Source of the DNA: Mesostigma viride
Taxonomy: Eukaryota; Streptophyta; Mesostigmatophyceae; Mesostigmatales; Mesostigmataceae
Assembly (NCBI GenBank): GCA_009746045.1
Contig: RPFO01002272.1
Coordinates: forward strand, 125,001-189,000
Direction: 5' to 3'
Length of the DNA stretch: 64,000 nt
Part shown: piece by piece, positions 7,494-30,632 of the stretch
Layout: each line of letters begins with the position of its first letter
How positions within the stretch are numbered: position 1 is the stretch's first letter
Notes under the pieces: generated by a model
The model's input: the letters and a program-made list of their open reading frames with translations, nothing else
What the model was told of the DNA's origin: nothing
The model's database searches: none
Position numbers and translations under genes: made by a program

Positions 7494-8211
7494 GGGGGAG
7501 GGAGGGAGGGAGGGCGGGCGGGAGGGAGGGAGGGAGGGAGGAGGGAGGGAGGGAGGAGGGAGGGAGGGAGGGAGGGAGGGAGGGAGGGAGGAGGGAGGGA
7601 GGGAGGGAGGGAGGGAGGGAGGGAGGGAGGGAGGGAGGGAGGGAGGGAGGGAGGGAGGGAGGGAGGGAGGGAGGGAGGGAGGGAGGAGGGAGGGGAGGGA
7701 GGGAGGGAGGGAGGGAGGGAGGGAGGGAGGGAGGGAGGGAGGGAGGGAGGGGAGGGAGGGAGGGAGGGAGGGAGGGAGGGAGGGAGGGAGGGAGGGAGGG
7801 AGGGAGGAGGGAGGGAGGGAGGGAGGGAGGGAGGGAGGAGGGAGGGAGGGAGGGAGGGAGGGAGGAGGAGGGAGGGAGGGAGGGAGGGAGGGAGGGAGGG
7901 AGGGAGGGAGGGAGGGAGGGAGGGAGGAGGGAGGGAGGGAGGGAGGGAGGGAGGGAGGGAGGGAGGGAGGGAGGGAGGGAGGGAGGGAGGGAGGGAGGGA
8001 GGAGGGAGGGAGGGAGGGAGGGAGGGAGGGAGGGAGGGAGGGAGGGAGGGAGGGAGGGAGGAGGAGGGAGGGAGGGAGGGAGGAGGGAGGGAGGGAGGGA
8101 GGGAGGGAGGGAGGGAGGGAGGGAGGGAGGAGGGAGGGAGGGAGGGAGGAGGGAGGGAGGGAGGAGGGAGGGAGGGAGGGAGGGAGGGAGGGAGGGAGGG
8201 AGGGAGGAAGG
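7494..8211 (+). repeat. (GGGA)n microsatellite, ~720 bp
   Basis: Continuous GGGA repeats with occasional GGA or GGGGA length slips. All G runs are on the plus strand. Every frame is open (Gly-Arg-Glu on plus, Pro-Ser-Leu on minus), giving long spurious reading frames. The runs of three G are suited to G-quadruplex formation. Confidence 0.97.
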
Positions 8212-8219
8212 CATGACTT

Positions 8220-8229
8220 TGTGTGTGTG

Positions 8230-8317
<88 letters not shown>

Positions 8318-8320
8318 TGG
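8220..8320 (+). repeat. (GCGT)n microsatellite
   Basis: About 25 units of GTGC/GCGT following a short GTGTGT lead-in. It joins the (GGGA)n block directly on its left and the (GGGT)n block on its right. Confidence 0.95.
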
Positions 8321-8325
8321 TTATA

Positions 8326-8648
8326 TGGGTGGGTGGGTGGGTGGGTGGGTGGGTGGGTGGGGGTGGGTGGGTGGGTGGGTGGGTGGGTGGGTGGGTGGGT
8401 GGGTGGGTGGGTGGGTGGGTGGGTGGGTGGGTGGGTGGGTGGGTGGGTGGGTGGGTGGGTGGGTGGGTGGGTGGTGTGGTGGGTGGGTGGGTGGGTGGGT
8501 GGTGGGTGGGTGGGTGGTGGGTGGGTGGTGGGTGGGTGGGTGGGTGGGTGGGTGGGTGGGTGGGTGGGTGGGTGGGTGGGTGGGTGGGTGGGTGGGTGGG
8601 TGGGTGGGTGGGTGGGTGGGTGGGTGGGTGGGTGGGTGGGTGGGTGGG
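8326..8648 (+). repeat. (GGGT)n microsatellite, ~320 bp
   Basis: Tandem GGGT with rare GGTG slips, again with all G runs on the plus strand. Third part of a compound G-rich block of about 1.15 kb. Confidence 0.97.
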
Positions 8649-8925
8649 GAAGGTGTGCTTTTTATTATGATGATTAGCTAAGTTACGTGTGTGTTGTTGA
8701 TGTACATGTTGACGTTGTATCATGGGCGTGTGCCCCTAAGTCTGCCTTCCTGCAATATCACATAATATATCATCAAGATGTGTTGTTGGGAACCTGACTA
8801 TATATCCCAAACTGGAATGGTTGACTTGCAACTATGGGAGGAAACCCTTGAAAAACAATTACTAGGAACTGCATTTTTTGTGCAATGTTGCTAGCATCTG
8901 TCACCTATTGGTCATGCAAACAGTC

Positions 8926-9780
8926 TTAATTTCTTGTGGGCAGTTAACATAGATGTTTTTATGAGCTGTGCAAAGTTCTAGGCTTAACTGAGTTCATTGA
9001 TATAGGCACCCATGTGTTGGAACCCTTGGAAAACCAAGAAAAACTGCATTTTGTTTTTTTTTTTGCTAGCATCAGTCACCTATTTGTCATCCAACCAGCC
9101 TGAAACTTTGTGGGCATGCTGCATGGGATGTGTTTAGAACATGTGCAAAGTTCAAGCTCCAACTGAGTTCATTTGGTGTCATTATGTATGCATATGTGTG
9201 ATAAAGCCCTTGGAAAACCATGAAAAACTGCATTTTTGGGGTATTTATGCTAGCATTTGTCACCAATTTGTCGTCCAACCAGCCTGAAACTTTGTGGGCA
9301 TGCTGCATGGGATGTGTTTAGAACATGTGCAAAGTTCCAGCTCCAACTGAGCTCATTTGGTGTCATTATGTATGCATATGTGTGATAAAACCCTTGGAAA
9401 ACCATGAAAAACTGCATTTTTGGGGTATTTATGCTAGCATTTGTCATCCAACCAGCCTGAAACTTTGTGGGCATGCTGCATGGGATGTGTTTAGAACATG
9501 TGCAAAGTTCCAGGCCCAACTGAGTTCATTTGGTGTCATTATGTATGCATATGTGTGATAAAACCCTTAAAAAACCATGAAAAACTGCATTTTTTGGGTA
9601 TTTATGCCAGCATTTGTCACCAATTTGTCATCCAACCAGCCTGAAACTTTGTGGGCATGCTGCATGGGATGTGTTTAGAACATGTGCAAAGTTCCAGGCC
9701 CAACTGAGTTCATTTGATGTCATTATATATGCATACATGCCAGAAAGTGCTGAAAATACGGTATTTTTTGCTAGCAAATG
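8926..9780. repeat. ~185-bp satellite, about five copies
   Basis: Direct repeats with period 175-185 bp. Each holds CCAGCCTGAAACTTTGTGGG, GCTGCATGGGATGTGTTTAG, CAAAGTTCCAG, CTGAGTTCATTTGGTGTC and CATGAAAAACTGCATTTTT. The first copy is diverged and the middle ones are nearly identical. Several key words are shared with the 172-bp satellite in the foldback element (12.0-14.1 and 16.9-18.3 kb), so the two may be distant relatives. Confidence 0.9.
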
Positions 9781-11497: not shown

Positions 11498-11679
11498 AAA
11501 AGGAGTGTTGCCGGCTCCGGGAGGACCGGCTGGACCTGGAGGGCCAGCGGGCCCCATGGTCGGCGCGGACCTGGACGTCATATTGGCGTCAGCGCTTGTC
11601 GGTGGCGCTGACTCGGGCCATGGCGGACATCATGCTCCGCCGTACGCGGGCTGATTTTGCGGTGCAGCAGGGCTATTAG
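11498..11679 (+). pseudogene. LINE ORF2 C-terminal fragment, copy 1
   Basis: The last ~60 codons of a non-LTR retrotransposon ORF2, with the tail RTWTSYWRQRLSVAL, TRAMADIMLRRTRADF and a TAG stop. It is nearly identical to 18718-18899 and followed by the same 3' sequence. Typical 5'-truncated LINE end. Confidence 0.6.
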
Positions 11680-12024
11680 GTTCCTCCCGTTAGGCGTTTC
11701 CATTGGTCTTATCGTAGTATAGAGCTTTGACATGGCTCTGTATATAGGTTTATAGCTGGGCGTTTGCTTTGGTTTGAGTGATTTCACTCTGCTGTAAGTA
11801 ATTATATTTTTAATATATATCACCACTAGACACTCCCGGCCAGTTAGGCTAGAAACACACGCCCTGATCAAGCATGCTGTTTCCGGCCCCACCGTCTAGG
11901 TCATCTAGTCGCTCCACACGTAAGCCAGCCATAATTTCAATGCACAAGGATGAGGGGATTCATAGGTGTTTGCTCAATTTCACAAGTCTTCAAATGAGTA
12001 AAAATAAAATCTTTCAGATCTGAG

Positions 12025-14125
12025 GGTACCTAAAGCTGGACTGTTGCAGGCAGCATGTAGACCATGAAAATAGACCACCCACGAAAATTGGGCTCATTCT
12101 GAGCTCAAATGGTGACATGTGACAGCATACATGTGCAGTTTTTCGTCATTTTCCCCCTTTTCTTACATGAAACAAATATGAATAGTGGACAAATGAACTC
12201 ATTTCAGGCTGGACTGTTGCAGGCAGCATGTAGACCATGAAAATAGACCACCCACAAAAATTGGGCTCATTCTGAGCTCAAATGGTGACATGTGACAGCA
12301 TACATGTGCAGTTTTTCGTCATTTTCCCCCTTTTCTTACATGCAACAAATATGAATAGTGGACAAATGAACTCATATCAGGCTGGATTCTTGCAGGCAGC
12401 ATTAGACCATGAAAATAGACCACCCACAAAAATTGGGCTCATTCTGAGCTCAAATGGTGACATGTGACAGCATACATGTGCAGTTTTTCGTCATTTTCCC
12501 CCTTTTCTTACATGCAACAAATATGAACAGTGAACAAACGAACTCATTTCAGGCTGGATTCTTGCAGGCAGCATTTATACCATGAAAATAGACCACCCAC
12601 GAAAATTGGGCTCATTCTGAGCTCAAATGGTGACATGTGACAGCATACATGTGCAGTTTTTCGTCATTTTCCCCCTTTTCTTACATGAAACAAATATGAA
12701 TAGTGAACAAATGAACTCATATCAGGCTGGATTCTTGCAGGCAGCATTATACCATGAAAATAGACCACCCACGAAAATTGGGCTCATTCTGAGCTCAAAT
12801 GGTGACATTGACAGCATACATGTGCAGTTTTTCGTCATTTTCCCCCTTTTCTTACATGAAACAAATATGAACAGTGAACAAATGAACTCATATCAGGCTG
12901 GTTCTTGCAGGCAGCATCTAGACCATGAAAATAGACCACCCACAAAAATTGGGCTCATTCTGAGCTCAAATGGTGACATTTGACCGCATACATGTGCAGT
13001 TTTTCGTCATTTTCCCCCTTTTCTTACATGAAACAAATATGAATAGTGAACAAATGAACTCATATCAGGCTGGATTCTTGCAGGCAGCATTATACCATGA
13101 AAATAGACCACCCACGAAAATTGGGCTCATTCTGAGCTCAAATGGTGACATGTGACAGCATACATGTGCAGTTTTTCGTCATTTTCCCCCTTTTCTTACA
13201 TGAAACAAATATGAACAGTGAACAAATGAACTCATATCAGGCTGGGTTCTTGCAGGCAGCATGTAGACCATGAAAATAGACCACCCACAAAAATTGGGCT
13301 CATTCTGAGCTCAAATGGTGACATTGACCGCATACATGTGCAGTTTTTCGTCATTTTCCCCCTTTTCTTACATGAAACAAATATGAATAGTGAACAAATG
13401 AACTCATATCAGGCTGGTTCTTGCAGGCAGCATCTAGACCATGAAAATAGACCACCCACAAAAATTGGGCTCATTCTGAGCTCAAATGGTGACATGTGAC
13501 AGCATACATGTGCAGTTTTTCGTCATTTTCCCCCTTTTCTTACATGAAACAAATATGAACAGTGGACAAATGAACTCGTATCAGGCTGGTTCTTGCAGGC
13601 AGCATCTAGACCATGAAAATAGACCACCCACAAAAATTGGGCTCATTCTGAGCTCAAATGGTGACATGTGACAGCATACATGTGCAGTTTTTCGTCATTT
13701 TCCCCCTTTTCTTACATGAAACAAATATGAACAGTGGAACAAATGAACTCGTATCAGGCTGGGTTCTTGCAGGCAGCATCTAGACCATGAAAATAGACCA
13801 CCCACAAAAATTGGGCTCATTCTGAGCTCAAATGGTGACATGTGACAGCATACATGTGCAGTTTTTCGTCATTTCCCCCTTTTCTTACATGAAACAAATA
13901 TGAATAGTGAACAAATGAACTCATATCAGGCTGGATTCTTGCAGGCAGCATCTAGACCATGAAAATAGACCACCCACAAAAATTGGGCTCATTCTGAGCT
14001 CAAATGGTGACATTTGACCGCATACATGTGCAGTTTTTCGTCATTTTCCCCCTTTTCTTACATGAAACAAATATGAACAGTGAACAAATGAACTCATTTC
14101 AGGCTGGATTCTTGCAGGCAGCTCG
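12025..14125 (+). repeat. 172-bp satellite array, left arm
   Basis: Twelve head-to-tail copies, period about 172 bp. Each contains CAGGCTGG, TTGCAGGCAGCAT, GACCATGAAAATAGACCACC, CAAATGGTGACAT, GCATACATGTGCAGTTTTTC and ACATGAAACAAATATGAA. Copies differ by a few percent. The period is close to a nucleosome repeat. Open frames of ~61 codons recur with the period and are not genes. Confidence 0.95.
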
Positions 14126-14226
14126 GTTCTAAAACTGGTTACGATTTGTAGTTACGAGTAAAACTGGTAACTAGAAATAGGTACCAGTACCATCCAAATT
14201 AATTAAGCATGGATACCATTTGTAAT

Positions 14227-15080
14227 AGTCTGAACCTTCACGACCGCCCATGGCAGCTCTCGCGAGCGATTATTCTAGCTCCGCAAAATTATTGCAATCA
14301 GCCAATTTGATCGAATTCACCATCGTCTCGCTCGGGGTTGGCACGCCTCTCCCAATGATGCCTCTCCTGCCTCTTTTGTGGCTCGATCTTCCACCGACTC
14401 AGCGCGGCGTATGAAAGTTCCATTCATGCAGAATTCATTCACCGACCCCCAACACTGACCGTACAGCCAGAACATACGAAAAGGTCTTGCATTCTCAATG
14501 AAAATGGGCTGTAACGGCATTCCATTGAGAATTCCATTCAGAACTCATTCACCGACCCCCAACACTGACCGTACAGCCTGAATTGGGCTGAACATGCGAA
14601 AAGGACTTGCATTCTCAATGAAAATGGGCTGTTGCGGCATTCCATTGAGAATTCCATTGAGAACTCATTCACCGACCCCCAACACTGACCGTACAGCCTG
14701 AACTGGGCTGAACATGCGAAAAGGACTTGCATTCTCAATGAAAATGGGCTGTTGCGGCATTCCATTGAGAATTCCATTGAGAACCATTCACCGACCCCCA
14801 ACACTGACCGTACAGCCTGAACTGGGCTGAACATGCAAAAAGGTCTTGCATTCTCAATGAAAATTGGCTGTTGCGGCATTCCATTGAGAATTCCATTGAG
14901 AACCCATTCACCGACCCCCAACACTGACCGTACAGCCTGAACTGGGCTGAACATGCGAAAAGGACTTGCATTCTCAATGAAAATGGCTGTTGCGGCATTC
15001 CATTGAGAATTCCATTGAGAACCCATGCACCGACCCCCAACACTGACCGTACAACCTGAACTGGGCTGAACATGCGAGAA
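14227..15080 (-). repeat. ~120-bp tandem repeats in the foldback loop
   Basis: After some 200 bp of unique DNA, six copies of a unit carry CCGACCCCCAACACTGACCG, TACAGCCTGAACTGGGCTGA and CATTCTCAATGAAAATGGGC. They lie near 14437, 14548, 14668, 14786, 14905 and 15025. The minus-strand frames through it repeat SVNEFSMEFSMECRN-like segments only because the DNA repeats. Confidence 0.9.
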
Positions 15081-15314
15081 ACGAAGGACCATCCAAAAGT
15101 GAAAAAATTCTGATTCAAACAGTCCGCGGTGTTGTCCGAGCCTCGCATGCAAATGGCATTTGAATGAACAAAGCACAGTGACCGTCGTCTTTGCGCGCGC
15201 GCGGCTGCAGGTGCGTACAGCCTGCCAAGCACTACCGGTAATTACTTTGTGCGCGCACGAACAAAACCAACGTCGCCGGCGATTGTTTACCAAAACGTGC
15301 CTGCATAATATGAT

Positions 15315-15959
15315 ATGGCAATGAGTGAAACTGAGAACCAGAGGGCAAAACGCCTGTGTTATGCAAATACTTTAGGTGTTTGCGTGTTAGATCATGAAGA
15401 TGGGGCAGATAACCAATGTCAGGGGAGATTGACGTGCAGGTGCTTTGTGTACGTCGAAAATATTGTTCATGAACGGATTTTGGCAACGGTGAAGAAATTC
15501 TGGAAGCTACGTAGATGGCATGATAGGTCAGTATGCTGTTCGGTTTTACAATTTCTTTTTCCGCCCAGTAGCTGCGGATATCGCGAGTATGGGTTATGGT
15601 ACGCTTCTGGGCTAATGGGCGACCCGGGCAACAGAGGGACCTGGGCAGTTAGATGGGTCAAAGAGTCTCCATTTTTTCGTCGTGATATCGCAGTCACGCC
15701 TGGCGAAAACCACGGCGAGCGCGAGCCATATTTTACTTTTGCCGCAAGGCTGGGTGCTTCCCGGGCGTCACCGTCCTTTAATATATATTTCTTGAGCTGT
15801 TCCGCGCAGCTGGCGGCCTGGGCGCACGTCAAGAACAAGGTTCCGGATGTCATCCGCAACCGCGTCGTTCTAAATAAGCGTGTCAAGAGTATCGTAGCTT
15901 ATAACTCCCGCAGACTTTATGATTCCGGTTCTTTTCGATGCCCAACGTCGTGGTTGTGA
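15315..15959 (+). CDS. Unrecognised ORF in the foldback loop
   Basis: A 214-codon frame. The segment VENIVHERILATVKKFWKLR has amphipathic, basic character, and a candidate donor (G|GTCAGT) follows at about 15527. Beyond the stop, another open piece (PNVVVVITPMSGELKGSLLG) ends at a candidate donor (AAG|GTAAAC) near 16032. This hints at a multi-exon gene or captured host gene fragments inside the element. I recognise no family, and a shadow frame is also open on the minus strand (15467-15886). Confidence 0.3.
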   Translation: MAMSETENQRAKRLCYANTLGVCVLDHEDGADNQCQGRLTCRCFVYVENIVHERILATVKKFWKLRRWHDRSVCCSVLQFLFPPSSCGYREYGLWYASGLMGDPGNRGTWAVRWVKESPFFRRDIAVTPGENHGEREPYFTFAARLGASRASPSFNIYFLSCSAQLAAWAHVKNKVPDVIRNRVVLNKRVKSIVAYNSRRLYDSGSFRCPTSWL

Positions 15960-16778
15960 TTACGCCTATGTCCGGGGAACTTAAAGGAAGTTTGCTGGGT
16001 AATGCTTTCTTTTCCCGTGTTGTCACTGAAAAGGTAAACGGCCTTGTGTCGTCAAAACAGCAGCAAGCAGAAGTCACTGTGCTTAGAATTGCAATGTGGT
16101 AGTTTGATTTAACACATATACTGCCTTGTTGCTGAAAACTTTTTCAAGGCCTGCTGGGATGTTGCCCATATGTTTCCAACGCTTTAACTCATGTCCAAGT
16201 GAGCTAGACTGGCTTGGAAACTTGAGCTTGTCATGCTTACATTGTGCTTGTATTGCTATTTGTGCCTCTTTGCAGTATCTGCTTTATATATAATTGAAGG
16301 CTTCAGCATCATTGTCGAGCACCGTGGTGGCAGCCAAGCCTCCAATAACGATCATGGACCTAACCTTGCCAAGTATTTGCTTCTTATTATTTCATTCTTT
16401 GGACTGAGCTAGCTTTGAGCTAGCTTTACACCTGCTATTTGGCCTGCACCATGGTCCCTGGCTGCCAGTTACATTTTGTGCCCCCCCCGGCAGGCTGCAG
16501 GGTCTAGGATAGCGAGGGTGTAACGTAGACATGTTGTGGGCACCCTGGGTGCATTTTCAGGACCAGCCTTTACTTTACCTGGCCCTGCCTTCTTTCTGGG
16601 CATATTGTTGACTTGAGTGCTTGTTGGTCACTCGCGTAGCGACCCCCCTGCATTCATAAATCGTAAACCATTATACAATGAGCATATTTCATGGATGTTA
16701 AGCATTGCTACTCTTGAACACATCATACATGAACATGTTTCCATGCCGTACCCATGGATATGTTAAAATGTGTGAGTT
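15960..16778. other. Remainder of the foldback loop, no gene assigned
   Basis: T-rich sequence with alternating TTTGCAG and GT tracts that look intron-like. Contains a C run near 16482. No protein motif found. Confidence 0.4.
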
Positions 16779-16884
16779 ATTACAAATGGTATCCATGCTT
16801 AATTAATTTGGATGGTACTGGTACCTATTTCTAGTTACCAGTTTTACTCGTAACTACAAATCGTAACCAGTTTTAGAACCGAGC

Positions 16885-18270
16885 TGCCTGCAAGAATCCA
16901 GCCTGAAATGAGTTCATTTGTTCACTGTTCATATTTGTTTCATGTAAGAAAAGGGGGAAAATGACGAAAAACTGCACATGTATGCGGTCAAATGTCACCA
17001 TTTGAGCTCAGAATGAGCCCAATTTTTGTGGGTGGTCTATTTTCATGGTCTAGATGCTGCCTGCAAGAATCCAGCCTGATATGAGTTCATTTGTTCACTA
17101 TTCATATTTGTTTCATGTAAGAAAAGGGGGAAAATGACGAAAAACTGCACATGTATGCGGTCACATGTCACCATTTGAGCTCAGAATGAGCCCAATTTTT
17201 GTGGGTGGTCTATTTTCATGGTCTAGATGCTGCCTGCAAGAACCCAGCCTGATATGAGTTCATTTGTTCACTGTTCATATTTGTTTCATGTAAGAAAAGG
17301 GGGAAAATGACGAAAAACTGCACATGTATGCTGTCACATGTCACCATTTGAGCTCAGAATGAGCCCAATTTTTGTGGGTGGTCTATTTTCATGGTCTAGA
17401 TGCTGCCTGCAAGTTTCCAGCCTGATACGAGTTCATTTGTCCACTGTTCATATTTGTTTCATGTAAGAAAAGGGGGAAAATGACGAAAAACTGCACATGT
17501 ATGCTGTCACATGTCACCATTTGAGCTCAGAATGAGCCCAATTTTTGTGGGTGGTCTATTTTCATGGTCTAGATGCTGCCTGCAAGAACCCAGCCTGATA
17601 CGAGTTCATTTGTCCACTGTTCATATTTGTTTCATGTAAGAAAAGGGGGAAAATGACGAAAAACTGCACATGTATGCTGTCACATGTCACCATTTGAGCT
17701 CAGAATGAGCCCAATTTTTGTGGGTGGTCTATTTTCATGGTATAAATGCTGCCTGCAAGAATCCAGCCTGATATGAGTTCATTTGTTCACTATTCATATT
17801 TGTTTCATGTAAGAAAAGGGGGAAAATGACGAAAAACTGCACATGTATGCTGTCACATGTCACCATTTGAGCTCAGAATGAGCCCAATTTTTGTGGGTGG
17901 TCTATTTTCATGGTCTAGATGCTGCCTGCAAGAACCCAGCCTGATACGAGTTCATTTGTTCACTATTCATATTTGTTTCATGTAAGAAAAGGGGGAAAAT
18001 GACGAAAAACTGCACATGTATGCTGTCACATGTCACCATTTGAGCTCAGAATGAGCCCAATTTTTGTGGGTGGTCTATTTTCATGGTCTAGATGCTGCCT
18101 GCAAGAATCCAGCCTGATATGAGTTCATTTGTCCACTGTTCATATTTGTTTCATGTAAGAAAAGGGGGGAAATGACGAAAAACTGCACATGTATGCTGTC
18201 ACATGTCACCATTTGAGCTCAGAATGAGCCCAATTTTTGTGGGTGGTCTATTTTCATGGTCTGAAGGCTG
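16885..18270 (-). repeat. 172-bp satellite array, right arm (inverted)
   Basis: Eight copies of the unit described for the left arm, in opposite orientation (CCAGCCTGATATGAGTTCAT and GGTGGTCTATTTTCATGGTC recur every ~172 bp). The junction with the unique inner segment (GAGCTGCCTGCAAGAATCCAG) mirrors that at 14102-14130. Confidence 0.95.
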
Positions 18271-18396
18271 GATGACCCCTGCTTTATTGACAAATATAAG
18301 GATTTAATCACATGTGGAAAAATTGAGTAAAATTTATGAAATTGAGCAAACACTTATGAATCCCCTCGATACACATTTCCATCACCATTCATCTTC

Positions 18397-18503
18397 ATCA
18401 TCCTGAACGACTCGAAAACGCGGAAAAGATAACGGCAGGCTCGAGCTACCATGGTCCGGATTCTCCCGATTTCTGGCCTGCGCTGGTTGTCTCTTTGATA
18501 TAT
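18397..18503 (+). repeat. Dispersed ~107-bp repeat (CATCCTGAACGACTC..TTTGATA)
   Basis: Nearly identical to 24291-24397 and, from GATAACGG inward, inverted at 24681-24753. It lies inside the right arm of the foldback structure but is absent from the left arm, so it is probably a secondary insertion. Confidence 0.75.
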
Positions 18504-18625
18504 TATAATAATATAATTACTTACAGCAGAGTGAAATCACTCAAACCAAAGCAAACGCCCAGCTATAAACCTCTATACAGAGCCATGTCAAATCTCTATA
18601 CTACGATAAGACCATTATATATATA

Positions 18626-18899
18626 GCTCCTGGCCTACGGCGACGTCGGGCACCATCGTGTGGTGCCCTTTGTCCTGGAGGAGTTTGGTGCCATGGGGCC
18701 CCTGACCTCCGCCTTCTTCAAGGAGTGTTGCCGGCTCCGGGAGGACCGGCTGGACCTGGAGGGCCAGCGGGCCCCATGGTCGGCGCGGACCTGGACGTCA
18801 TATTGGCGTCAGCGCTTGTCGGTGGCGCTGACTCGGGCCATGGCTGACATCATGCTCCGCCGTACGCGGGCTGATTTTGCGGTGCAGCAGGGCTATTAG
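18626..18899 (+). pseudogene. LINE ORF2 C-terminal fragment, copy 2
   Basis: Ninety codons of the C-terminus of a non-LTR retrotransposon polyprotein: LLAYGDVGHHRVVPFVLEEFG, then a short helix, then RTWTSYWRQRLSVALTRAMAD and a TAG stop. The pattern 'VPFV.E.FG.(M/L)G....F' followed by 'W...LSVAL.R' and the end of the ORF is typical of LINE ORF2 tails. Upstream endonuclease and reverse transcriptase are missing, which is the usual 5' truncation. The shared part is nearly identical to copy 1. Confidence 0.6.
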
Positions 18900-18949
18900 G
18901 TTCCTCCCGTTAGGCGTTTCCATTGGTCTTATCGTAGTATATATAGAGC

Positions 18950-19287: not shown

Positions 19288-19632
19288 TATATAGAGCTTT
19301 GACATGGCTCTGTATATAGGTTTATAGCTGGGCGTTTGCTTTGGTTTGAGTGATTTCACTCTGCTGTAAGTAATTATATTTTTAAAATATATATAATAGG
19401 CCCTGGAGGGCCGGCCAGCGGGCCCCATGGTCGGCGCGCGGACATGGACGTCACTATTGGCGTCATGGCGCTTGTCGGTGGCGCTGACTCGGGCCATGGC
19501 TGACATCATGCTCCGCCGTACGCGGGCCCTGATTTAGCGGTGGAGCAGGGTTATTAGGTTCCTCCCGTTAGGAATTTCCATTGGTCTTATTATCGTAGTA
19601 TAGATCTTTGACATGGCTCTGTATATAATTAG
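19288..19632 (+). pseudogene. LINE 3' module and frameshifted ORF2 tail, copy 4
   Basis: The ~110-bp 3' module (GCTTTGACATGGCTCTGTAT to TTATATTTTTAAAATAT) is followed by a fourth, indel-ridden copy of the ORF2 tail (CAGCGGGCCCCATGGTCGGC to GGGTTATTAGGTTCCTCCCG). Confidence 0.6.
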
Positions 19633-21634: not shown

Positions 21635-21787
21635 CTAATATACACTACTGGTATATTCCCTATAGTCTGGGGTGGCAGGAGGGGCCTGCCAGGGCTTGTG
21701 GTCAACGTGGAGGACCGCCCCCCTCCAGTATACCGGCTTCCCCCCTGCACGCTGCCGGAGCTGAAGGTAGGTCGGCCATAGCTCTGT
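21635..21787 (-). pseudogene. LINE ORF1 C-terminal scrap
   Basis: A minus-strand frame reads GGKPVYWRGAVLHVDHKPW. It resembles the end of the ORF1 copies at 22.1-24 kb (KPKVYYWRGGDLMINH). Too short to classify alone. Confidence 0.4.
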
Positions 21788-21995
21788 ATATAGGTTTATT
21801 GCTGGGCCGGCGTTTGCTTTGGTTTTCAAGTGATTTCACTCTGCTGCAAGTAATTATATTTTTAATATATATAATAGGTGCATGGTGTATATTAATTTCT
21901 TCTGGGTTCTAGCTTCTTCTTTTCGGGTTTTTCCTTATGTTGCATGCCAATCTCACCTCCGTAAATTATCATTCTCAATGAATATATATAGGTGA
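21788..21995 (+). repeat. LINE 3' module, copy 5
   Basis: CTGTATATAGGTTTATTGCT to AATTATATTTTTAATATATA, then the ATTAATTTCTTC..CACCTCCGTAA..ATTCTCAATGAATATATA 3' UTR, as at 19190-19400. Confidence 0.7.
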
Positions 21996-24030: not shown

Positions 24031-24321
24031 CTAGGTACTGTCGCCATTTGTTTTATCGTAGCAGGGTTTCTTGGGCTCTGGCGAGGCGCTTGGCGATGGG
24101 TTTGCTGGTGATGGGTTTGTGGGCCCAGACGGCTGGCCCGGGCAAGGACAATGGCTAGTGGGTTGGGCTGGGAGCCGGAAAGCTCCTTTTCCAAACCTCG
24201 TTTTGCTTTAGGAGTCTGTCATAGCTGCTTGTCACGTGCGTAACTTTTTCGATACTGCGTTCCAGCCGCAACCAATTATACTGGCAAGTGTCATCCTGAA
24301 CGACTCCTGAACACGCGGACA

Positions 24322-24753
24322 AGATAACGGCAGGCTCGAGCTACCATGGTCCGGATTCTCCCGATTTCTGGCCTGCGCTGGTTGTCTCCTTGATACTGGC
24401 AAGTGTGTCTGAAAAAGGCGCATCGAATGCAAGTGATCTGTCTGAATTCGGGGCTCAGACGCAAAAGATCTGATCTCCGGACGCCGTCAGCCATACGCCG
24501 TCAGCCATTTGGATGGCAGTTTGCTACATTCTGCTTGCCTAGCTCGAAAAAAAAACAGCATGCATGCCTAGCGCGCTCGTATGCCTACGCGTCGATCCGG
24601 CCTAATATAGTATACTGCAGGAGGGCGCACGTGCGCAGATCTCGACCTGCGCAGGCATGCGTGCCACTGACTGAGTCATATATCAAAGAGACAACCAGCG
24701 CAGGCCAGAAATCGGGAGAATCCGGACCATGGTAGCTCGAGCCTGCCGTTATC
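24322..24753. mobile_element. Small element with 73-bp inverted repeats (MITE-like)
   Basis: GATAACGGCAGGCTCGAGCT to GGTTGTCTCCTTGATA at 24322-24394 is repeated inverted at 24681-24753 with one substitution, enclosing 286 bp with no gene. The same terminal sequence is found singly at 18430-18503. Pieces of its inner end (TATCAA-GAGACAACCAGC) occur near 1870, 50158 and 57752. The size and arms fit a non-autonomous DNA transposon. I could not define a target duplication. Confidence 0.65.
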
Positions 24754-25270
24754 TATATATGAATATTAACATCCATGCATGCACGTCATGCGTCATGCAT
24801 GCATGCAAAGTAGTGCGCAATAAATGGCAGCTGAAGCATGCATGTGCAGTCCGTCAACGCTAACAAATCAAGTACTTGAAAAACATATAGGTAGCACAAG
24901 TGGGATTAAATATATCGCCCTATATTTATACTACTACATTTCTGGAATAAATAAGAACAGATTTCTGGATAGTTTAGCCAATTACCGGCCAAGTCTTGGC
25001 CAGGTACCCCAGGCCGTATTATGGGTCTTTGCTGAGGCCGCGTCTGGGCCGTAGATATCACAAATAGTAGAGAATGGGCATCCACCCAGTACCGGTCTGT
25101 CTGCCTTGGCGACCCACGTCAGTTTAATGAACATGTGACCTGGCCAGGTGCCTTCCATGGCAACGAGAGAAGGGGGTGATCCCTGGCCCCTTATTGCGGT
25201 GCATCAACCAGGGGTGAAAGGTACCTACGAGTTCACAAGGTTCATACCCCGTGTCTCGTCTATTGGAGGC
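24754..25270. other. No gene seen
   Basis: AT-richer DNA with GCATGCATGC-type runs near 24775-24810. Nothing recognisable before the ATGA microsatellite. Confidence 0.4.
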
Positions 25271-25533: not shown

Positions 25534-28500
25534 TCACATGGCTTCACCCAACAGGCCATAGGTGGGCAGTACCCCCTCGTCCGGTGCAACGGACGTCCGG
25601 CGAGGGAGACTAGCGGGCGGCCGGGGCTTTGCCGACTTTTTCACACCCTGCGGGGGTGCCTTTGTCGGCGGCGGCAGGACCGGGATGTTCTTGGGCGGGC
25701 CAGCCCTCGCCCTCAACTCTGCCATCGAGATGGAAAAGTAGGCAATGCGCATGCGGTGCCATGTGTACGAGAGGCTGATGCCCTCATTCCCCGCGTCCCT
25801 GGGTCCCGGCCACGCGATGATGGCCGGGTAGGCAAACTCGTGCCGCTTCTCGTGCCACTTTGTCTTCAACCCCGCCACCAGCTCGCTCTCGACATCCAAC
25901 GCGCGCGGCCAGGTCTCTCCATTGTCGTCGCTGAGGCTAAGCCGCAGCGGCGCACGACCCTGCTCATATGTGACCGGGTTATGGGCCAAGACCAGCGTGC
26001 CGGACGCCGGAAGACGGACGGCGTCGATCCCCGAGTTGTTGTTGGGGAGCTTGGTGCGGCGCGGCTGGCTCCACGTGCGCCCGCCATCGGCCGAGTCGGT
26101 GCGCCAGATGCACGCGTCGGGCCCCTTGTTCTTTGTGCGCAGGAACGCGTGCACGTGGCCCGGCGCCGACTCCCATAACGTGGGCTGGTTGATCCCTAAG
26201 TGCTGCCGCACGTCCCACGAGGTCGGACGCAAGTATTCTGAGTGTTTCCAGGTGGCCCCTCGGTCGGTCGAGAGGTCAATGAAGCCCATCCCTTGCTCGG
26301 CGCCCTTCTTGCGAGGGGCAATGCTGCCACCCGCGAGCCATGTCCCGTCGGATAGGACAATCGGCTTGTTCTTGACAGGGCCGCGCCCGCCGTCGCCCGT
26401 GGACCCTGGCACGAGCTCCCAGGGCGCCTCCCAGGTCTCGCCATGGTCGCGCGAACGCGTCACAAGCGTGCGCCAGACGGGGATGTCCTTGCCAACCTGC
26501 CCGGGGCGGCCGCGGCAGCAGCGCACACGTTGGGTGGTAGGGGCACCACAGCAAAGGGTAAGCGAGGGGCTGTAAGAATGAAAATCTGGCAAGCGCGGCG
26601 AGATTTCAGTGGAAGGAAGGGAATGGCAAAGGGGGGGAGAACGGGGGGAGTAGGGGCTTAGGGAGGGGGGGGAGGAGGGGTGTAGAGGCGTAGGGGCGTA
26701 GGGGCATAGGGGCGTAGGGGCGTAGGGGCGTAGGGGCGTAGGGGCGTAGGGGCGTAGGGGCGTAGGGGCGTAGGGGCGTAGGGGCGTAGGGGCGTAGGGG
26801 CGTAGGGGCGTAGGGGCGTAGGGGCGTAGGGGCGCAGGGGAGTAGGGGATTAGGGCAGTAGGAGAGGATGGGAGGGGGGGAGGGGGCAGTAGCAGAGACA
26901 GGCAGCCTCTGATTGTCCTAGGCCCACTTCAGATTGTTAGTACACGAATAATCTCCGTTCTTCTCAATAAGAAAACAGACCAGCCCTTCTCTGGCAGCAA
27001 TCCGTGCCACATCCCCACAAGGCACAAATGGTGAGCTGCCGCGGTCCATGTGGTAGCCTTTGCTCCCCAACCCCGTTCGGCTTACCTTGATGCTTACCTG
27101 GATTTGCTGCTGCATGTCTTGGTCTGAGAATTCCCAGGGGCACAGCGACAGGCGGTCTAAGAACATCCGACCTGCCAGCAATGCTCATGCCCACTGCCAT
27201 TGAACCGCACGTACATGCATCCGCATACCGCTGTTCCACTGACCTTTGCTCCACTAGCAACCAAACCCGACCTTTAAGCACAGGAGCATACCTTGAAGAA
27301 CAGTAGCACGGACGCGCAGTTGAACATAATGCTGCCGTCCTCTGCCACCCCCTCCTGCTCCTCCTCGCAGAAGAGCACAGGGTTCCAGTGCGCAACGTTG
27401 GACACTTTGATGGTGCGCGCCACGCGCCAGCGGGCGTTCGGCCGGTTGGTCAAGTCCAGGCCCTGGTTTGGGGGAGGGTCTACGTTCACCTCATAGAGCT
27501 TGCGGATGCCTGTCCAGATGGTGACATCTGGCGAGCCCTCCTGCGTGGCGTGGGCGTGGGCCGAAAGGCCAGGCCAGCAGTTGGTAGTTGCAGGGAGCAA
27601 GGGGGGGACGGAGGGGGTTCATGGCATGTCCTGACAGGGCTCGCATGCTGTGACAGTAGGCAGCAGGTCCTTGTGCCAAGTAGTAGTGATGCTGTCAGGT
27701 CAGACGGTGCGGACATAAATTCTGAGCAGAAGCCAACGTGTTTGCAGTTTGCAGGCAATGGGTGTGGCTGCGGAGCCCTCGTGAAGCATAGAGACCTACA
27801 GCACAGAGACCTACAGCATTGAGACCTATAGCATAGAGGTCTAGAGCCTAGAGACCTACAGCACAGAGACCTACATCATAGAGACCTACAGCATAGAGAC
27901 CTACAGCATAGACACCTACAGCATAGACACCTACAGCATAGAGACCTACATCATAAAGACCTACAGCATAGAGACCTACAGCATAGAGACCTACAGCATA
28001 GAAACCTACAGCATAGAGACCTACAGCATAGAGACCTACAGCATAGAGACCTACAGCATAGAGACCTACAGCATAGAGACCTACAGCATAGAGACCTACA
28101 GCATAGAGACCTACAGCATAGAGACCAACACCATAGAGACCTACAGCCTAGAGACCTACAGCATAGAGACCTACAGCATAGAGACCTACAGCATAGAGAC
28201 CTACAGCACAGAGACCTACAACACAAAGACCTACAGCATAGACACCTACAGCCTAGACACCTACAGCCTAGAGACCTACAGCATAGAGACCTACAGCATA
28301 GAGACCTACAGCATAGAGACCTACAACATAGAGACCTACAGCCTAGAGACCTACAGCCTAGAGACCTACAGCATAGAGACCTACAGCATAGAGACCTACA
28401 ACATAGAGACCTACAGCATAGAGACCTACAGCACAGAGACCTACAGCATAGAGACCTACAGCATAGAGACCTACAACATAGAAAATATACAGAAAGCGAT

Positions 28501-30632
28501 ACCACGGCACATGTTTAGGAATGGCTTTCTTGACCAATGTCGAGGCACCCCACCTTGACAGTGCCATAATCAAGTCTAACCCCACCATGCGAGGAGTAAC
28601 CAAATTTACCCCCACCATGCTAGGGGCAATCAGGTCTACCTCCACCATGCACCACCGGCGCGGAGCCTGGCTGACAGTGCCATGCACGCCACATTGGCTG
28701 GCGTGTGTTCCCTTCCACCGACACCTGTGGGATCATGTCATGACAACTGTTCTACTCGGTGATGACACACATGCTACTGCGTGCTGATGCCACACAAGCC
28801 ATTACGGCGGTGATGGCTGTGTCGGCAGCGAATGGTGCGCGTGTGCGACCGGCAGGAACAATGGGTGGTGCAAGCCGGCTGGCCGGCAAGCAGGCAGGTA
28901 GACTGGTAGGCGGGTGGGCGGGTGGGCGGGTGGGCGGGTGGGCGGGTGGGCGGGTGGGCGGGTGGGCGGGTGGGCGGGTGGGCGGGTGGGCGGGTGGGCG
29001 GGTGGGCGGGTGGGGGTGGGCGGGTGGGCAGGTGGGCGGGTGGGCGGGTAGGCGGGTAGGCGGGTAGGCGGGTGGGCGGGTGGGCGGGTGGGCGGGTGGG
29101 CGGGTGGGCGGGTGGGCGGGTGGGCGGGTGGGCGGGTGGGCGGGTGGGCGGGTGGGCGGGTGGGCGGGTGGGCGGGTGGGCGGGTGGGCGGGTGGGCGGG
29201 TGGGCGGGTGGGCGGGTGGGCGGGTGGGCGGGTGGGCGGGTGGGCGGGTGGGCGGGTGGGCGGGTGGGCGGGTGGGCGGGTGGGCGGGTGGGCGGGTGGG
29301 CGGGTGGGCGGGTGGGCGGGTGGGCGGGTGGGCGGGTGGGCGGGTGGGCGGGTGGGCGGGTGGGCGGGTGGGCGGGTGGGCGGGTGGGCGGGTGGGCGGG
29401 TGGGCGGGTGGGCGGGTGGGCGGGTGGGCGGGTGGGCGGGTGGGCGGGTGGGCGGGTGGGCGGGTGGGCGGGTGGGCGGGTGGGCGGGTGGGCGGGTGGG
29501 CGGGTGGGCGGGTGGGCGGGTGGGCGGTGGGTGGGTGGGCGGGTGGGCGGGTGGGCGGGTGGGCGGGTGGGTGGGTGGGCAGGTAGGTGGGTAGGCGGGT
29601 AGGCGGGTAGGCAGGTAGGCAGGTAGGCAGGCAGGTTGGCAGGCTGCGGGCTGTGTGTGGGGCAATAGGTGGGAGGGCGAGTTGGTGCATGGCAGTTTCG
29701 AGGTGGCTGGTAAGGTGGGTGGGTTGGTGCAGGGACCAGGTGGTAGACAGTGCTCCCGTTATTGGACCTCGCAGCTGCTGTAGTTAGAGTTGCTTACTTG
29801 CCACTGCTGTTCTGAGGTGGCAGCCAAGAAAAATGATGCTCATGACGTTTCTGTCTTGATCCGAAAATTCTATGAACAATAAAGGCAGGAGCAAGAGGCT
29901 ATAAGCTTTAGGGCAGACCAAACGGATGGCTCGGCACTAACTGGAACCCAAAATGGTCTATAGAGGCAAGCGGAGAGACCAATTAAAAATAGAGGCCGCT
30001 CGTCAGCTGGGCACAACTGCTCCCTAAGGAAGAGTTTCGCGATAAGACACATCATATCATTAAGCATGTTGTTCTGGCTAAGATCAGAATTCGGCGAGTG
30101 CGGTTTCATGGCAGCGGCCTTCTGTAAACCAACTAGGCTGGTCATGGCCTCATGGGTGTCCCCTCGGATGCCCCACGGAGGTCTAGGTCTGCAGCATGCC
30201 AGCATTGCTTACCTTTCGGCCAGCAAACCAGGCAACTAGAACGGTCGCAGGATCAAGGTGCAGCAACGTGGTGGCGTGACACTCCGGTGGTAGAACTTCA
30301 AACTCGAGAATCGTGGCTTTCGCTTTGTTTGCGTTCCAGGTGCCACCGAAAAGAAATTCAGGCCAAGTAAATTTCTTTTTATCGTGCTTTGGATGAGGGT
30401 CGAAGTGAATAAGCAGGCGTCGGTTGCTACGGCTTGTGTCATAATTCTTGACAGGTCCCACCAGGTCGGGTCGGGCAGCAGAACTTGCTGGATCAATGCT
30501 GCGCATTTCCGCCACGGGACTTGGGAGGATGGCAGAGCTCGCTCGAAGGCATAGCATGAAATAAGTTGAAAGTGCTACAATTCCCGCATATCCCCTAGCA
30601 TTCGGCTTTTCGCACTGCATGGTGCTATGCAA
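25534..30632 (-). CDS. Sialidase/neuraminidase-family protein (BNR_2, four Asp-boxes), 3 exons
   Basis: Exons 30632-30213, 27540-27292 and 26496-25534 join in phase 0 with canonical GT-AG ends (AAG|GTAAGC, CAG|GAGGGC, AAG|GTATGC, CAG|GTTGGC), giving 543 aa. Residues ~14-36 are hydrophobic and could be a signal peptide or anchor, so the protein may be secretory. HATTLLHLDPATVLVAWFAG and EGSPDVTIW are the family's N-terminal signature. Four S-x-D-x-G-x-T-W Asp-boxes stand at about 238-245, 299-306, 358-365 and 412-419. FAYPAII and SYTWHRMRIAYF close the six-bladed propeller, and a Pro/Lys-rich tail of ~65 residues follows. Relatives hydrolyse or bind terminal sugars. The substrate cannot be told from sequence: sialic acid is uncommon in green algae. 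ATG at 30632 is the first Met (a second is at 30620). Both introns are loaded with minisatellites. Confidence 0.88.
26680..26850 (+). repeat. 8-bp minisatellite GGGGCGTA in sialidase intron 2
   Basis: About 20 units of GGGGCGTA, with GGGGCATA and GGGGCGCA variants at the edges. G-rich on the plus strand, hence C-rich in the pre-mRNA of the minus-strand gene. Confidence 0.95.
27786..28481 (+). repeat. 15-bp minisatellite GAGACCTACAGCATA in sialidase intron 1
   Basis: Roughly 46 tandem units with scattered single-base variants (CACAG, CCTAG, ACATAG). The 15-bp period keeps frames open (CRSLCCRSL on the minus strand), which is not coding. Confidence 0.95.
28907..29640 (+). repeat. 8-bp minisatellite GGGCGGGT in sialidase intron 1
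   Basis: About 85 units, almost perfect in the centre and degenerating to AGGCAGGT at the right edge. It lies in the same intron as the 15-bp array. All G runs are on the plus strand. Confidence 0.97.

Follow-up and report, generated by a model that had tools for sequence, protein, structure and literature searches.

Two long satellite arrays face each other across a loop in the genome of the streptophyte alga Mesostigma viride: are they part of an element that moves, and if so, what moves it? The arrays lie in the window analyzed here, a stretch of 64,000 nucleotides (contig RPFO01002272.1, our C291:125001-189000) from the 440-Mb assembly GCA_009746045.1. We find that they belong to a 6,416-bp element (11952-18367), one copy of a mobile, recently active foldback-type family present at many loci. 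We further consider it probable (about 0.85) that the window copy is a non-autonomous member of a cut-and-paste family whose autonomous sisters encode a putative transposase, carrying the domain DUF7869, that would move both.

The layout described in an earlier, sequence-only reading, a 12-copy 172-bp array and its 8-copy mirror image around a 2.55-kb loop, holds at 12.1 units of 172 bp, 8.0 units of 173 bp and 2,550 nt (Table 1). The inner junctions that it saw mirrored (14126-14226 and 16779-16884) form a 105-bp inverted repeat with no differences, and this identity extends over the innermost 356 nt of the arms (13872-14227 and 16778-17133), which are 100% complementary; overall, the arms diverge by ~2-4%. 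With units numbered from the loop outward, the first complete ones (L2 and R2) are identical, the pairs L5/R5 and L3/R7 differ in one alignment column each, and the remaining pairs differ more. Such shared subtypes fit two histories: both arms descend from a single arm and expanded independently afterwards, or conversion has acted repeatedly between them. Outside the arrays lie subterminal spacers that are unrelated to one another, and then 34-bp terminal inverted repeats (TIRs) that are mirrored again (32 of 34 positions identical, termini GAGGGG), a succession that indicates a transposon with short TIRs rather than an inverted duplication. The 20-mer core of the TIR was found nowhere else in the window with up to three mismatches, and in none of 100 shuffles. 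Neither the TIR nor the inner repeat resembled the satellite unit above the level of shuffles, as an origin like that of Tetris might have left them (for the right part of the loop, p was 0.025).

Table 1. Features of the window copy and of its insertion site (positions in the window).
Feature	Positions	Strand	Basis or remark
Left half of 265-bp dispersed target repeat, outside the element	11820..11951	.	
Left target-site duplication GAT	11949..11951	.	flank reading, empty site
34-bp TIR, G-end	11952..11985	+	mirrored ends; core with 149+145 genomic matches
G-end subterminal spacer	11986..12034	+	unlike the other end; common to other copies
Left-arm satellite array, 12.1 x 172 bp	12035..14122	+	
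Inner inverted repeat, left, 105 bp	14123..14227	+	
Loop	14228..16777	+	14228-14263 and 14337-15424 match internal segment of autonomous copies
120-bp direct repeats in loop, 5.1 copies	14470..15077	+	matching repeats in autonomous copies
Inner inverted repeat, right, 105 bp	16778..16882	-	identical to the left one
Right-arm satellite array, 8.0 x 173 bp	16883..18262	-	opposite orientation
A-end: remainder of outermost partial satellite unit and subterminal spacer	18263..18333	-	
34-bp TIR, A-end	18334..18367	-	
Right target-site duplication GAT	18368..18370	.	
Right half of 265-bp dispersed target repeat, outside the element	18371..18503	.	

Mobility is shown by the ends, the 3-bp target duplications and two exact empty sites. 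A genome search for the TIR core, allowing up to three mismatches, returned 149 forward and 145 reverse matches, and the reversed pattern used as a control returned 0 and 0. Among the first 100 of these 294 matches listed, to which the pairing analysis was confined, 80 make 40 inward-facing pairs (spacing 4,892-32,639 bp), which leaves 20 without a partner; an A-end faces a G-end in 35 of these pairs, and two A-ends face each other in the other five. Counts from the other genome searches are given as places scored out of candidate places. The inner junction (14126-14226), whose recurrence at several loci with different flanks had been proposed as a sign of mobility, is exact at 40 of 40 scored places (128 candidates), and the same layout appears on many contigs in differing flanks; the element is thus not confined to the single locus that would have spoken against it.

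Besides the window copy, which is flanked by GAT, 14 of 15 pairs carry 3-bp target duplications (CGG, ATG, AAG, CGT, CGA, ACA, AAA, AAG, AAC, TTT, CTA, CCC, CTG, GTA), and a pair on C224 has none. Of 30 TIR loci (L022-L051), 22 contributed 11 locus pairs to this comparison; L022 and L050 have no listed partner and were left out, L051 belongs to the C224 pair, which was read from L062 and L063, and L031-L035 form a nest of copies from which the nested copy alone was used. That copy sits inside the satellite of another copy, and its empty site, undisturbed satellite with one AAA, occurs in two longer copies (C1 and C1391). The empty site of the window copy, its flanks joined across one GAT, is matched in full (120 of 120 bases) at each of the 40 places scored, out of 497 candidates. 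Furthermore, 1,671 bp of the window loop are identical at five other genomic places, which argues for recent activity. Arm length varies among copies, with strict-core units numbering 12 and 8 in the window, 3 and 4 in C1, and 6 and 9 in C258. The last shares its exact length, 6,649 bp, with two other listed copies, and its interior is flipped relative to its ends when compared with the window copy, an outcome to be expected if inverted arms recombine. Two further arrangements were seen in passing: a copy at C1106:6107842-6121784 apparently contains the inner junction and loop three times in direct orientation, at intervals of 2,889 bp, and L031 has an A-end joined straight to the 120-bp-repeat sequence of the loop and looks like an internal-deletion derivative.

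The longer copies point to what might move the family. C1 (9,397 bp, duplication CGG) and C1391 (15.0 kb between its ends, with two internal frames that look by eye like inserted retroelements) share the ends of the window copy, inward satellites and a segment matching its loop, and agree with each other at 99.9% over 4,506 bp. Both contain an open region in three parts. Its central frame, of 753 codons, matches DUF7869 (PF25273, E 2.3e-14), and the window copy has no such gene; the frame that follows gives a Tudor-like hit below threshold (PF21743, E 4.7e-4). A second long frame runs on the opposite strand, with 671 glutamine-rich codons and no Pfam match in C1391 (L060:1697-3709 (-)) and 535 codons in C1. 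A genome-wide search with the DUF7869 query gave 84 matches in 76 scored of 712 candidates, including 14 places where all 573 query residues are matched at 100% (rounded) without a stop, in frames of 753 codons at 12 places, 923 at one and 694 at one. The listed TIR matches cover the contigs of five of these 14 places: those on C1, C1389 and C1391 are inside inward-facing pairs, that at C2:4787987 is enclosed by the outer ends of a copy holding nested copies, and that on C446 has one listed TIR end 6.4 kb away. Divergent relatives with 36-57% identity are numerous in the genome, where PF25273 itself matched 150 times with 150 of 275 candidates scored; 14 control genomes gave none.

The conserved acidic residues of this protein and its predicted transposase- or integrase-like core suggest that it is probably the DDE/D transposase of the family, with moderate support. 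Of 12 DUF7869 loci obtained, L083 (split into two short frames) was omitted from an alignment. D204 is conserved in 11 of 11 sequences and D297 and D336/D338 in 12 of 12, in the order expected of a DDE/D triad and across ~7 lineages. The predicted core aligns best with the mariner/SETMAR transposase domain and with retroviral integrases; fold families absent from the VIA-align list were not counted as evidence. At the sequence level, neither Pfam nor phmmer against the PDB detected similarity of the candidate to mariner or integrases. DUF7869 was the only Pfam family above cut-off in the candidate and 11 paralogs, with zn-ribbon_14, OSTMP1 and Las1 below threshold. Comparison of the DUF7869 alignment with viral contigs gave 27 stretches, of which 0 were confirmed, and the literature searched, which excluded subscription papers and Repbase, holds no mention of 'DUF7869'. 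Two side observations concern this gene and its relatives. First, a palindromic hairpin insert (TGTGCCTGGCAAGCCAAAAA...) of varying length lies in the putative first intron of the transposase gene at 8 of 8 loci (L064-L071), and occurs also at L072 from 5557, at L060 and near a sister family (L093); it may be an intron-borne miniature inverted-repeat transposable element (MITE) or introner-like, and it was not found in the window. Second, two copies of the sister DUF7869 family (L093 and L094) agree at 99.1% over 1,128 bp and then diverge within a palindromic stretch.

Could the DUF7869 frame instead be a passenger in a family moved by another transposase? The second long frame of the autonomous copies would allow this, as would the moderate strength of the structural support for catalysis. 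However, the DUF7869 frame is stop-free at 14 near-identical places, and it has many divergent relatives, conserved acidic residues and a core predicted to resemble transposases and integrases, which makes a passenger unlikely. Under the reading we prefer, the DUF7869 protein would bind and cut the 34-bp ends and insert the element with a 3-bp stagger, hence the 3-bp duplications, by cut-and-paste rather than another mode of transposition. The window copy, having no such gene, would have to be moved in trans by the protein of its autonomous sisters. By analogy with Galileo, the satellite arrays, which are subterminal parts of both ends, may offer multiple transposase binding sites, although a shuffle comparison found no sequence motif backing such a role; they would grow, shrink and homogenize through unequal exchange and gene conversion between the arms.

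The likeness to FB and Galileo elements of insects that the sequence-only reading proposed stands for the architecture and fails for membership. Foldback (FB/Mutator) has similarly long inverted ends of tandem repeats, but its target duplication is ~9 bp, against 3 bp here. A Pfam scan at E <= 0.1, with no profile-profile comparison, showed no Mutator family in the candidate transposase or in any of its 11 paralogs. Mariner duplicates TA, unlike the varied 3-bp sequences seen here, and CACTA/EnSpm termini, CACTR, are absent. The remaining comparisons draw on excerpts of the cited papers. Galileo, of the P superfamily in Drosophila, also has long ends that are repetitive inside and differ in their number of repeats (PMC3573991), and its arm repeats were shown to hold extra binding sites for the THAP transposase (PMC3688188), yet it makes 7-bp duplications and encodes a P-type transposase with a THAP domain (PMC3573991, PMC3688188); the frames scanned here had no Pfam match to THAP or to a P-type transposase. 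Tetris of Drosophila virilis is likewise non-autonomous, with a terminal domain, a variable number of ~220-bp tandem repeats, an inner domain and a middle part that seems to lack coding capacity, and its repeats also form satellite arrays (PMC4079207). It differs in its 8-10 bp duplications and in that no partner coding for its transposase was found (PMC4079207); the present family duplicates 3 bp and has sister copies with a candidate transposase. Tm1 (Mutator/Foldback, root-knot nematodes) shares composite ends with differing motifs, varying numbers of tandem repeats, coding and non-coding copies and the lack of a target consensus, and differs in its mostly 9-bp duplications, ~14-bp repeats and Phantom/Mutator-like transposase; its authors note that foldback-type elements are not necessarily related (PMC3169594). 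Zator shares the 3-bp duplication, and PHIS, relatives of PIF/Harbinger, make duplications of 0-4 bp, which allows 3 bp (PMC10045372); Pfam showed no Harbinger-type DDE transposase among the candidate and its 11 paralogs.

True membership in Foldback/Mutator or Galileo/P is thus very improbable: the plan of short terminal part, tandem-repeat arm, inner domain and loop is the same (PMC4079207, PMC3573991, PMC3169594), but duplications of 3 bp rather than 7 to 10 bp exclude these groups as defined, and DUF7869 was the sole Pfam family above cut-off, neither Mutator nor P elements being matched. Our best reading is that a DUF7869 transposon acquired foldback arms independently. There is a fair chance that the transposase comes from an undescribed superfamily; the fuller proposal, that DUF7869 is the catalytic domain of an unrecognized eukaryotic DDE/D superfamily with 3-bp duplications and a foldback form independent of Mutator/P, is a tentative one that we would rate below even odds. 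Inverted, near-identical arms are also the classic shape of an assembly artefact, here an inverted chimera, but the arms are unequal in copy number (12.1 versus 8.0) and ~2-4% divergent, and the same layout recurs on many contigs in different flanks, so that an artefact is barely credible. A chromosomal inverted duplication of a satellite array, which the sequence-only reading had kept as an alternative and which the identity of the innermost 356 nt might favor, is refuted by the empty sites and sits no better with 294 dispersed end matches, 3-bp duplications and spacers whose lack of relationship a duplication would not predict.

The family is a case of a transposon with satellite DNA as its ends, and for the unnamed domain DUF7869 it suggests a function as a DDE/D transposase. 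Some foldback elements, such as Tetris, have no known mover. In the present family, copies without the gene, autonomous copies that appear intact and exact empty sites occur near-identical in one genome and make the role of repetitive foldback arms directly testable. Among the papers listed by the literature searches (again without subscription papers and Repbase), none concerned a foldback element of a green alga, and the excerpt of a Chlamydomonas comparative-genomics paper does not use the word 'foldback' (PMC8226300). The junction, satellite and TIR patterns had 0 matches in viral contigs, plasmids and phages gave no match, and a 17-base junction had 13 single matches in 257 Gb of prokaryote genomes, where chance would give an estimated ~30.

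Does the loop carry captured host DNA, as had been suggested? For ~1.1 kb of it (loop positions 1-36 and 110-1197) it does not, this part matching the autonomous copies; the other 1.35 kb has no counterpart in C1 or C1391, the two autonomous copies read. The 120-bp repeats noticed earlier are present in about five copies, but the accompanying open frame (15309-15956) is probably not a gene, as it spans ~15424, where the likeness to autonomous copies ends. As a captured gene it was rejected, having no Pfam match, PDB matches at chance level only (E 0.33 and 0.74) and no relative in viral contigs. Three reverse frames of 15041-16780 likewise had no Pfam match.

The outer modules that had been taken as mirrored parts of the element (11704-11820 and 18498-18614) are not part of it: they are copies of another dispersed repeat and lie outside the pre-insertion site. 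The true ends of the element are the 34-bp TIRs, which had been overlooked. Joining the flanks over 542 bases shows that the target was a ~265-bp dispersed repeat, probably a MITE or a short interspersed nuclear element. The full join is held by 0 of 40 scored places (1,784 candidates), so the outer modules are separate repeats adjoining the 265-bp repeat. They recur in both orientations at 19290-19392 and 21777-21872 with a short hairpin, GAGTGATTTCACTC, and are probably the 3' tail of a long interspersed nuclear element (LINE): C1391 has a reverse-transcriptase-like frame whose final residues, LLAYGDVGHHRVVPFVLEEFGAMGPLTSA, open the window frame 18627-18896, and the tail beyond that C1391 frame resembles the window frame 11581-11895. 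Both the LINE-tail likeness and the identity of the C1391 frame were judged by eye. Coding-like stretches lie upstream of these modules at 11500-11721, 18720-18941 and 19399-19627.

Elsewhere in the window, Rfam and tRNA scans returned nothing. A 184-bp tandem array (8842-9735) is a distant relative of the 172-bp satellite (score 47, against 17 for the best of 200 shuffles), matches 155 times in the 40 places scored, out of 475 candidates, and shares more of its neighborhood among the three loci compared. At 24291-24754 lies a ~464-bp element whose inverted ends are nearly the same (98.6% over 74 bp) and which is related to 18398-18503 and 1851-1892; a 352-codon frame at 25534-26592 (-) contains sialidase-type BNR repeats (PF13088, E 2.7e-42). 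Long simple-sequence arrays, (GGGA)n, (GTGG)n and (GGTGGGCG)n, occupy 7496-8648 and 28905-29628.

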